DNA of 64,000 nt, from NCBI GenBank assembly GCA_902779705.1, contig CACZCR010000001.1:1-64000 (forward strand), given 5' to 3'. Below the pieces are notes generated by a model. That model had not been told where the DNA came from and made no database searches. It saw only the letters and a program-made list of their open reading frames with translations. A program made the translations under genes and the position numbers. The stretch comes from an uncultured Bacteroidales bacterium (GTDB lineage: Bacteria; Bacteroidota; Bacteroidia; Bacteroidales; Paludibacteraceae). Positions 11,741-51,704 of this stretch are shown piece after piece; position 1 is the first letter of the stretch, and every line of letters starts with the position of its first letter.

Positions 11741-11766
11741 TGTGTTAGAAAAAAACAATAAAAACC

Positions 11767-11888
11767 CCTTTGAATCCTTTTGAAGCATAGCTTCCGACGC
11801 GTATTAGCGCTTAAAACTCCTCGCAAGCAAGCTTTCGGATAGTTTTAATCCCTAATCCACGACCCTAATGGGTAAAAGGATTCAAAGG
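11767..11888 (+). ncRNA. candidate structured RNA element, copy A
   Basis: A perfect 15-bp closing stem (CCTTTGAATCCTTTT 11767-11781 with AAAAGGATTCAAAGG 11874-11888) encloses 92 nt. These can fold into GAAGC-ATA-GCTTC, a TAAAACT/AGTTTTA stem capped by a short hairpin, and ACCC-TAAT-GGGT abutting the closing stem. The copy at 51547-51669 has the same layout, an enclosed length of 91 nt and similar A-rich flanks, but different stem sequences. Both share a TTAAA...ACTCCTC stretch and AATCC. It lies between the 2771-aa gene and the OmpA-like gene. It matches no RNA family I can name with confidence. It could be a leader RNA, a processing element or a terminator. Confidence 0.5.
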
Positions 11889-11981
11889 AGATAAACACAA
11901 AAAACAATTATTTGTTTAATTTGATTAATCTATTGTTTTTAAGGTTTTTGTTAAAAATTGAAATATTAAAGAACTACAGAT

Positions 11982-13388
11982 ATGAAAAACAAACATTTTC
12001 TTACCATTATCGTTGCGACGCTGGCCATCTCAGTCAGTGCACAGCAGAGCGTGCACGATAATTACATCGGCGTTAACTTCGGTGGAGGACTTAACTCGAT
12101 GCTCTATAAGCCGGCTAACGGTACGCAGGGCTTGGGCTTCGGTTTTGATGCCGGAATCCATTACGGTCGTTTCTTCAACCGTACCGTCGGTCTTGGCGTA
12201 GGTCTCCAGTACTCATGGGCAAACGCTTACGCGACCTATAACTGGAATGAAGTGACTACAGGACTCACGCACCCCTCCAACCCTAATACGCCGTATGACC
12301 TCACGACCGGCTTTACGAACTTCGTGGAGCGTCAGAACGTGGGTTATCTCTCTATCCCGGTAGAGGTGCTCTTCCGCAAGGCTCTCAGCGACCGTGCGGC
12401 ATTCATCGCCGGTGTGGGACTCAGTCTGGATCTGCCGATTCAAGGCAAGTATATCGCTAAAAGCGGTTCGTACAGCACGACCGGTGTCTTCCCTGAGCTG
12501 GGACCCTATACTGTCAGCGACATGCCTGAGCATGGCTTCAGTACCTATACTACCACCCAGAACGCCAAGATCAACAATCGCGCGAAGGTAGGCGGTTCGG
12601 TCATAGCTGATCTCGGGCTCCGGGTTGCGCTCAATGATAACTGGGGAATGTATTTCGGTCTTTATGCCGGCTACGGATTTACCAACTTCCTGAAGGAAAG
12701 CATGACGGACGAGATGATCATGATCAACGCTACCAATCCTGCAATTATCGACTATCGCGGCACCTTCGATTCCAATGAGACAGGCAAGGCGAACCTCATC
12801 CGTGCAGGTGTGAAGATAGCCGTTGATTTCGGTTGGCCCAAGAAAGTGCAAGAGGCACCGGCTGAGGAGCAACAACTGCCGACTGTCAACGACGATGCAG
12901 AGCGTCTGGCACGCGAGAAAGCTGAACAAGAGCGTTTGGCTCGTGAGGCTGCCGAGAAAGCAGCCCGTGAGAAAGCAGCCCATGAGAAAGCGGCCCGTGA
13001 GAAAGCTGAGGCGGAGCGTCTGGCGGCTGAGCAGGCCTTCAAACGTCAAGTAGAGACGCTTGATGTCCACTTCGGTACGGCACAGGATCAACTTACCTTC
13101 AATGAGGGTGAACAGGATATCGTCGACCGCTTGTGCGACATGATGAAAGCAGACCCGAGTATGCGCATCAAGATCACCGGTCATACCGACAACACCGGTA
13201 ACGCTGCACAGAACCTCAGCTTCTTCGGTATGAAGCGTGCTAAAGCGCTCAAGGCGTACATGGTAGAGCAGGGTGTGGATGCATCGCAGATCGAGTGCGA
13301 TTCTAAGGGTCAGACCGAACCTGTAGCGGACAACAAGACCCGCGAAGGTCGCGCTAAGAACCGCCGTGCGAACATCAAGTTCCTGTAA
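11982..13388 (+). CDS. OmpA-family outer membrane protein
   Basis: 468 aa. A signal peptide (MKNKHFLTIIVATLAISVSA) precedes an outer-membrane beta-barrel of about 255 residues with glycine/aromatic strands (IGVNFGGGLNSML, VGLGVGLQYSW). A highly charged Ala/Lys/Glu linker follows (about 300-350, repeated REKAAxEKAA), probably helical. The last 115 residues are an OmpA C-terminal peptidoglycan-binding domain: VHFGTAQDQLTFNEGE, ITGHTDNTG, and a final GRAKNRRANIKF box. It should tether the outer membrane to the cell wall. It stands alone between the candidate RNA element and a rho-independent terminator, with no neighbour in its transcript. The long linker is the one unusual point. Family assignment is secure. 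Confidence 0.93.
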   Translation: MKNKHFLTIIVATLAISVSAQQSVHDNYIGVNFGGGLNSMLYKPANGTQGLGFGFDAGIHYGRFFNRTVGLGVGLQYSWANAYATYNWNEVTTGLTHPSNPNTPYDLTTGFTNFVERQNVGYLSIPVEVLFRKALSDRAAFIAGVGLSLDLPIQGKYIAKSGSYSTTGVFPELGPYTVSDMPEHGFSTYTTTQNAKINNRAKVGGSVIADLGLRVALNDNWGMYFGLYAGYGFTNFLKESMTDEMIMINATNPAIIDYRGTFDSNETGKANLIRAGVKIAVDFGWPKKVQEAPAEEQQLPTVNDDAERLAREKAEQERLAREAAEKAAREKAAHEKAAREKAEAERLAAEQAFKRQVETLDVHFGTAQDQLTFNEGEQDIVDRLCDMMKADPSMRIKITGHTDNTGNAAQNLSFFGMKRAKALKAYMVEQGVDASQIECDSKGQTEPVADNKTREGRAKNRRANIKFL

Positions 13389-29708: not shown

Positions 29709-29713
29709 TGTTG

Positions 29714-29787
29714 TGACCCTGCTGGGGCTCAAACCCAGAACCTTCAGAACCGGAATCTGACACTCTATTCAATTGAGCTACAGGGCC
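29714..29787 (-). tRNA. tRNA-Arg (anticodon CCG)
   Basis: A 74-nt cloverleaf on the minus strand. The acceptor stem is GGCCCTG/CAGGGTC with one G-U pair, the D arm is GCTC/GAGT, the anticodon stem TCAGA/TCTGA has loop TTCCGGT (anticodon CCG, reading CGG), and the T arm is CTGGG/CCCAG with TTTGAGC. The discriminator is A and CCA is not encoded. Confidence 0.93.
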
Positions 29788-32239: not shown

Positions 32240-32630
32240 GGGGCTATTTGGTTTTGACAGCATGCCGGATGGGTATGTAAGCACGCCGAGCAATGGGAAA
32301 AAGCTCGTTAATCTCGTTCTCAAAATCATAACTGGCAACTATAATGTAGCTCTCGCTGCCTAACCGAAGTATAGTAGGTTACTTTATTCGGGCACAAGGT
32401 GCCTGAACGAGACATCGCTCCAAGCCGAGTCTGTGGGCTGAAAGGGTATAGCGGTGCGGAAATTCACAGAATAGGTGTCGCAGGCTGCGATGCGATACCG
32501 AAACCAAAGCAGATAAGCCGGTGGTTGGTGGCTTGGGTCTTGCTACTGGACGAAAATCAAGGCCAAGATAAGCGTGTAGAAAGCATATTTGTTCCATGTT
32601 TGGACGTGGGTTCGACTCCCACTAGCTCCA
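32240..32630 (+). ncRNA. ssrA: transfer-messenger RNA
   Basis: The 5' end GGGGCTA (32240-32246) pairs with TAGCTCC (32623-32629), forming the tRNA-like acceptor stem. The T arm sits at about 32605-32621 (GTGGG, TTCGACT, CCCAC). The 5' domain shows the usual ATTTGGTTTTGACAGCATGCC stretch in shortened form. The tag reading frame ends at TAA near 32364 and reads GNYNVALAA, close to the Bacteroidetes consensus GENNYALAA. Its role is to rescue stalled ribosomes with SmpB and tag the peptides for proteolysis. CCA is not encoded (A then CAA). Confidence 0.95.
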
Positions 32631-32732
32631 CAAGGGACCTACTGGAAGTCTCACCCACGGGTTCTTATCTCGCATAAGGCTCGAACGATTATTGCTGACG
32701 CAATTTTCGACTCCCACTAGCTCCACAAGGGA
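32611..32732 (+). repeat. 27-bp duplication of the tmRNA 3' end
   Basis: The last 20 nt of ssrA plus 7 following bases (32611-32637) recur exactly at 32706-32732, 95 bp downstream. The 3' end of ssrA is a well-known attachment site for integrases. The pair looks like left and right borders of an integrated element that has since been lost, leaving 68 bp between copies. No integrase is present. Confidence 0.75.
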
Positions 32733-51519: not shown

Positions 51520-51546
51520 CTTATAAAGAAAAAAACATAAAAAACA

Positions 51547-51669
51547 CTGATTATTGATTTTAGCACTCTGTACTTCCAAGTCCTTTTCGTTAAAGTACTC
51601 CTCCGAATAAATTCGATGACTACTTTATCAAAAAATCCTTGAATTCTTCGAATTAAAATCAATAATCAG
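51547..51669 (+). ncRNA. candidate structured RNA element, copy B
   Basis: A perfect 16-bp closing stem (CTGATTATTGATTTTA 51547-51562 with TAAAATCAATAATCAG 51654-51669) encloses 91 nt. Inside are TAAAGTA/TACTTTA (7 bp) capped by CGAAT-AA-ATTCG, and AATTC-TTC-GAATT next to the closing stem. The arrangement equals copy A (11767-11888) with different paired bases, and the flanks are alike (AGAAAAAAACA before, ATAAACACA after). It sits in the agaS-kbaZ gap, 36 nt before the kbaZ-like ATG. Confidence 0.5.
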
Positions 51670-51704
51670 ACATAAACACACAAAACATTTTAATCTCAAA
51701 GTAT

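Follow-up and report, generated by a model that had tools for sequence, protein, structure and literature searches.

We found that two elements in a 64,000-nt stretch of DNA (the window) from an uncultured Bacteroidales bacterium of the Paludibacteraceae are members of an interspersed repeat family that is apparently undescribed. We name these repeats clovers. They are about 160 nt long and, judging by the comparisons of sequences below, the family is one of mobile DNA. The full explanation that we favor, with a probability of roughly 55%, is that clovers are REPIN-like mobile DNA that acts as folded single-stranded DNA and is possibly processed by a nuclease. If so, then clovers are mobile repeats that owe their heritable identity to a DNA fold, not a sequence, and searches for sequence homology would miss them. 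The covariation of 45 base pairs on a DNA-like strand would then be a clear comparative case in which a bacterial chromosome is under selection for single-stranded DNA structure, as well as a warning that covariation by itself is no proof of a structured RNA.

Both copies in the window were read directly from the sequence. The closing arms of copy 1 (11767-11781 and 11874-11888) form a perfect stem of 15 bp around 92 nt, and those of copy 2 (51547-51562 and 51654-51669) form a perfect stem of 16 bp around 91 nt. We call this closing stem P1. An earlier reading, made from the sequence only, had described these stems, an inner 7-bp stem, a hairpin capped by an AA loop, and a hairpin beside the 3' closing arm, and all of these are present as it stated. 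It had also pointed to A-rich flanks that are alike at the two sites. Indeed, the flank pair ATAAACACA..AAAACA occurs in the window at copies 1 and 2 only (0.00 expected). Both strands fold much better than expected: copy 1 has z-scores of -6.1 (plus strand) and -6.4 (minus strand), copy 2 has z-scores of -5.1 (plus) and -8.3 (minus), and shuffled sequences never fold as well.

With its T-rich flanks, copy 1 spans 11748..11906 on the minus strand, where it reads TGTTTTTTGTGTTTATCT-cloverleaf-GGGGTTTTTATTGTTTTTTTC, with flanks that are common to all copies. Its parts, all assigned to the minus strand and given in plus-strand order, are the left arm of P1 (11767..11781; from the sequence and the folds); a small hairpin with a 3-nt loop, GAAGC-nnn-GCTTC (11782..11794; from the fold, and helix 6 of the covariation analysis); the long central arm (11795..11861; from the folds, and covariation helices 3-5); a further small hairpin, which is ACCC-ATTA-GGGT on the minus strand and whose loop is of the GNA/GNNA class in the family (11862..11873; from the folds); and the right arm of P1 (11874..11888; from the sequence and the folds). 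The apex of the long arm (11825-11834) is AAGC-AA-GCTT on the plus strand and has a TT loop on the minus strand; the pair that closes this 2-nt loop covaries. Copy 2 spans 51527..51687, also on the minus strand and with T-rich flanks. It has the left arm of P1 at 51547..51562, the small hairpin and long central arm at 51563..51641, the further small hairpin (AATTC/GAATT, from the DNA fold of the bottom strand) at 51642..51653, and the right arm of P1 at 51654..51669, where P1 was again assigned from the sequence and the folds and the central region from the folds. In the folds, its long-arm apex (51605-51614) is GAAT-AA-ATTC on the plus strand, with a TT loop on the minus strand. Copy 1 is flanked by a gene whose surface-protein product carries a Por-secretion tail and by a gene of the OmpA family. 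The two genes around copy 2 encode a SIS-domain protein and a protein similar to GatZ/KbaZ.

The two elements had been presented as two distant copies of one fold. Both are real, but they are not a pair: they belong to a large family. We built a covariance model (R1) from a minus-strand alignment of four copies with a stated structure. In the window, R1 matches copy 1 (11759-11897 minus, 136 bits), copy 2 (51538-51678 minus, 40 bits), and nothing else. A covariance-model search of related genomes, which had been suggested as a check, yielded many further copies. The 1.82-Mb assembly that the window comes from has about 14 clovers; R1 finds about a dozen (a third copy there was also found by the flank pattern, and a looser pattern gave more). 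Clovers are present in 15 of 25 genomes from the same genus of rumen Paludibacteraceae, with up to 18 matches per genome, and 16 genomes from other families gave no R1 match. Across 84,980 species, the flank pattern identified 39 contigs from rumen Bacteroidales or Paludibacteraceae and one probable chance match. A refined model, R2 (in which one of the 86 rows, L212 plus, is from the wrong strand), added six clovers in G271, which belongs to a different Bacteroidales family; their flanks are quite different and their architecture is the same. An R2 match in G418 is probably false, as it lies within a tandem repeat adjoining a tRNA. We found no clovers in the plasmids, phages, and viral contigs that we searched. 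At both gathering and loose thresholds, no family in Rfam 15 matched either site, and the best sub-threshold scores were far below the cut-off, in line with the remark that the elements resembled no family that could be named. The only Rfam matches in the window, both away from the clovers, are to tmRNA and tRNA: the tmRNA gene (tag GNYNVALAA) is at 32240-32633, and a gene for tRNA-Arg(CCG) is at 29713-29787.

Every clover copy folds into a four-way cloverleaf, whose order on the minus strand is TGTTTTTTATGTTTATGTC - P1 - small hairpin - long interrupted arm - small hairpin - P1' - GGGGTTTTATAGGTTTTTTTCT. The stems of the original proposal are retained, but as parts of a four-way fold whose stability is clearly higher on the minus strand, opposite to the strand on which it was first described. 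Across 86 aligned copies (alignment A7), 45 of 45 base pairs have changed on both sides, and 92.1% of cells are paired. The covariation score is 0.679; shuffles reach 0.232, and sliding the partners by 1-3 columns gives no more than 0.142, so the covariation test that had been called for came out above both controls. The alignment was fitted to the model, which inflates the pairing somewhat. We consider the conclusion to be safe nevertheless because of the slide control and because there are 45 distinct P1 arms among 85 copies; P1 is paired at 12-13 of its 13 pairs in 69 of these 85. At one orthologous locus in three species (L309/L315/L310), the flanks are near-identical, while changes in the cloverleaf have left its pairing intact. 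Selection on single-strand structure had been proposed from compensating changes in just the two copies, and the family-wide comparison confirms that the cloverleaf structure is under selection, with the sequence changing freely.

In 85 of 85 copies, whether DNA or RNA parameters are used, the minus strand folds more stably, by a mean of 9-10 kcal/mol. (These copies were gathered with a minus-strand model.) It is more stable because the positions that are not Watson-Crick pairs are mostly G.U there, with 172 G.U on the minus strand versus 67 on the plus strand. At the tip of the long arm there is a 2-nt loop, TT in most copies, and the pair that closes it covaries: of 53 non-redundant copies, 33 have C-G and 19 have T-A. 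Because CUUG makes a stable tetraloop in RNA, too, it is chiefly the T(TT)A class that carries the argument from 2-nt loops. Among the same 53 copies, the first small hairpin has a GNA or GNNA loop in 43, only 13 of which are GNRA, and the loop of the second is of 3 nt in 48. In DNA, GNA and GNNA loops are known for mini-hairpins of extraordinary stability (PMC4686876). Clovers are sense to their flanking genes as often as antisense (27:26). Together, the loop features and the equal orientation make a strong but not conclusive case that single-stranded DNA fits better than RNA, and they suggest that it is as single-stranded DNA that the fold matters.

The elements had been put forward as a candidate structured RNA, and this is the part of the sequence-only reading that we would give up, although its wider wording, "RNA (or single-strand)", did leave room for a single-stranded DNA structure. 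A new riboregulator or small RNA that is made from the minus strand and spread by duplication would account for the strong covariation, for a minus-strand fold that is favored with RNA parameters as well, for the many C(UU)G apexes, and for the U-rich tail that follows the hairpin. However, clovers lie sense and antisense to their neighbors equally; there is no conserved neighbor gene apart from GxxExxY (described below); the T(TT)A 2-nt loops and the non-GNRA G..A loops, many of them of 3 nt, suit DNA better; and elements come and go at orthologous sites. We therefore consider a structured RNA to be unlikely. We also considered a role as a terminator and rejected it: co-oriented genes are favored (53 of 66) over convergent ones, and there is no strand preference.

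Comparisons of orthologous sites are what suggest that clovers are mobile. At the copy-2 site, orthologous intergenic regions across the genus have no element, and in G006 only the T-rich flanks are present, fused at TGTTT, which we term a scar. At the copy-1 site, the element is missing from five orthologous intergenic regions (G060, G007, G052, G001, and G008); G003 has two inverted clovers; and in G045 there is a composite of 860 nt, clover(-) - GxxExxY gene - clover(+). In the window, copy 1 is accompanied by the scar of a second, inverted copy (11933..11952 on the plus strand), which reads TTGTTTTT|AAGGTTTTTGTT and was recognized by alignment with L108/L248: the second cloverleaf of G003 has been deleted between GTTTTT repeats. 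The simplest history for this site would be that a composite lost its gene first and then one of its ends. Over the 250-nt block at 11751-12000, identity with G003 reaches 99.6%, compared with 60-94% for the flanking coding DNA (taken 50 nt at a time), which suggests that the block was recently exchanged between lineages. Both scars are at repeats of 5-6 nt, and the losses may be plain replication slippage over a hairpin. When we scanned the loci for fused T-rich flanks, we found them only at elements, at the scar in the window, and at one other place; we rejected the idea that the scars are common target sites. A match to a known mobile-repeat family had been named in advance as grounds for dropping the RNA proposal. 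No such match was found, yet from these comparisons we infer that clovers are mobile DNA repeats.

Neighboring clovers have a fixed polarity. Among copies within 1.6 kb of each other, 16 pairs are inverted as (-,+), with their 5' sides facing, none are (+,-), and 14 have the same orientation. (One of the 16 is the ortholog of another, which leaves 15 independent inverted pairs, and these counts leave out a divergent subfamily, L063/L095, whose pairs are mixed.) That subfamily, at L063:4500-5960 and L095:6800-8210, has CGTTTTTGATTTAC flanks and CACTACGTTTACAAAAAAGCGCTACGCTTT repeats, and it surrounds GxxExxY genes that lie next to a gene for the ATPase of an ABC transporter. Inverted pairs often enclose a gene, which may be GxxExxY (TIGR04256/PF13366), DUF3784, or another small ORF, and a gene for a ParE-type toxin lies between two clovers of the same orientation. 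Most neighbors of clovers are ordinary chromosomal genes: when we compared 1035 flanking ORFs all against all, only large surface proteins, GxxExxY, and DUF3784 were recurrent.

The GxxExxY proteins (TIGR04256, or PDDEXK_3 in PFam, PF13366) are a family whose function is uncharacterized; in the part of the literature available to us, they receive a passing mention beside a reverse transcriptase. The genes that clovers enclose belong to this family, as two of the proteins score 109 and 99 bits with PF13366 and 108 and 101 bits with TIGR04256. Of 30 GxxExxY loci that we sampled in the genus, 10 (about 7 of them independent) have a (-) clover just upstream of the start codon. Loci of Y1/RAYT-like genes served as the control, and 0 of 42 had a clover. 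(These clovers were sought by scans with the model and by folding, as a simple scan for perfect stems is too insensitive.) Two of the 10, L293 and L298, encode GxxExxY proteins that are only 34% identical to the one in the genome of the window, and their cloverleaves have a permuted order of arms; the element at L293 also has long inverted outer ends, CCCGCAGACTACACAGACTACGCAGAAA. D82, E92, and K94 (the D..ExK residues) are invariant. The fold superfamily that GxxExxY belongs to takes in both Holliday-junction resolvases and Cas4. A structure model (pLDDT 92) is most similar to Cas4 SSO0001 (Z = 8.9), with archaeal Hjc at Z = 5.8, and fold similarity at Z of 5-9 is common and no indication of function. 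Searching the sequences in the PDB with the GxxExxY profile returned 4ic1 alone (E = 0.23).

It is attractive to think of the GxxExxY protein as a nuclease that would act on the four-way DNA junction, and we tentatively propose the clover-flanked GxxExxY nuclease, of the PD-(D/E)XK type, as the likeliest partner of the clovers. Should this link be real, a widespread and uncharacterized family would have its first function. Unlike the clover-enclosed genes, GxxExxY genes elsewhere in the phylum lack detectable clovers: clover-like flanks were found at 9 of 60 such loci versus 10 of 180 shuffled controls, and none were convincing by eye. Because there is no clear excess above background across the phylum, the partnership is either limited to this lineage or coincidental. 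The gene may also be mere cargo, since DUF3784 and the ParE-type toxin are enclosed as well. A more far-reaching proposal, which we find doubtful, is that this is a new transposition system: the GxxExxY nuclease would recognize the junction and mobilize DNA that is bounded by cloverleaves of single-stranded DNA, and solitary cloverleaves would be the system's non-autonomous offspring, tied to a structure but not to a sequence.

A clover consists of T-rich direct repeats on both sides of a unit of P1, small hairpin, long arm, and small hairpin that folds on the minus strand. In the mechanism that we have in mind, the cloverleaf would act as folded single-stranded DNA, such as the exposed strand during replication or an extruded cruciform. 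An enzyme would recognize the four-way junction together with the conserved apex of the long arm, and the DNA bounded by clovers would be copied or moved. The complete unit would be clover(-) - gene - clover(+). Loss of the gene would leave gene-less doublets, and loss of one end would leave the common singlets, which may be compared to REPINs and their RAYT genes. Scars would result when the DNA between the T-rich repeats is now and then deleted.

Clovers work most like REPINs, and on the features that we tested they are not members of that class. Like REPs and REPINs with their RAYT (TnpAREP) transposases, clovers are intergenic, fold on one strand, and occur as singlets, as inverted doublets of fixed polarity, and as doublets that contain a gene. 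REPs, however, are hairpins of 20-65 nt with a GT[AG]G foot, and clovers are four-way junctions of about 120 nt whose foot is GTTTATGTC / GTTTATTGC, not 5' GT[AG]G; also, clovers flank a PD-(D/E)XK gene instead of Y1 genes. Could clovers be REP-like elements that the genus moves in trans with its RAYT-like transposases of the Y1 (HUH) type? Y1 proteins similar to P0001 are encoded in 29 of 41 genomes, including two in the genome of the window, and REP_Tyr_transpos is their best NCBIfam match, below its cut-off. (These RAYT-like proteins, such as those at L140 and L147, are about 370 amino acids long with a long C-terminal extension, and there are 1-9 matches per genome.) The inverted doublets are as in REPINs, and subclass 2.6 of TnpAREP, from Bacteroidetes, was reported with "atypical secondary structures" (PMC6006769), the closest hint in the literature available to us. 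The structures in that study were described as weaker and as lying beside Y1 genes, and clovers differ from these. REPs typically flank the gene for their transposase, but we found no clover within about 1.5 kb of any Y1 locus (0 of 42). Clover copy number and the presence of Y1 are also only loosely related across genomes, with clovers and no Y1 match in G004, G012, and G021 and the reverse in G015 and G024. Given this, and the missing GTAG foot, movement by the Y1 transposases seems quite improbable. The IS200/IS605 elements and their non-autonomous derivatives likewise have folded single-strand ends and no obvious target duplication. Unlike these, clovers have no subterminal pair of simple hairpins and no Y1 gene in cis (there is none beside clovers, and RAYT-like Y1 genes are found elsewhere in many genomes), and paired clovers are inverted, while the left and right ends of IS200/IS605 are on the same strand.

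Two further possibilities seem remoter than these. If clovers were the attC-type sites of gene cassettes in an integron-like system, then one would expect structure without sequence, and attC sites do have a conserved fold without a conserved sequence and a bottom-strand preference (PMC2727003), as do clovers, whose bottom-strand preference is one of computed stability and no more. Arrays in the same orientation with small genes in between (ParE toxin, DUF3784, and GxxExxY) would fit as well. But an integron integrase (TIGR02249) scores above the cut-off in 0 of 41 genomes (the matches are tyrosine recombinases only, far below the cut-off, as in all control genomes), the paired R/L boxes and their extrahelical bases were not seen on inspection, clovers often form inverted pairs, and most neighbors are ordinary chromosomal genes. 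Clovers also differ from attC sites in their nearly perfect P1 and their conserved T-rich direct-repeat flanks. We view an integron as the least probable of the explanations considered here. Only slightly more credible is a passive cruciform repeat, without function itself, that is carried by conventional MITEs with DDE ends and maintained by hairpin-templated repair. Template switching does perfect imperfect palindromes, and some clovers are within units of about 270 nt that have inverted ends. Such ends are missing from most copies, including both copies in the window, and what is kept is not just a stem: it is the whole four-way architecture together with the motif at the apex and the classes of loop, and the strand preference is consistent. 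Like the MITEs of DDE transposons, clovers are short, non-autonomous, intergenic, and present in many copies per genome; unlike them, most clovers lack terminal inverted repeats, and they have a covarying four-way fold and a strand asymmetry. We continue to prefer REPIN-like mobile DNA that acts in its folded, single-stranded form.

The units of about 270 nt were seen at L126, L127, L070, L036:8674, and L110, with ends of TAGTGTCCACT..AGTGGACAGTA or ACTGTCCCATT..AATGGGACAGT, and they are apparently MITEs of DDE transposons that captured a clover. Downstream of position 5327 in L098, the right end of the MITE is present three times in tandem, with no cloverleaf in between. At L114:5126-5374, L123:4742, and L124:105-288, clovers have extra structured inserts in their arms, which makes them nested repeats.
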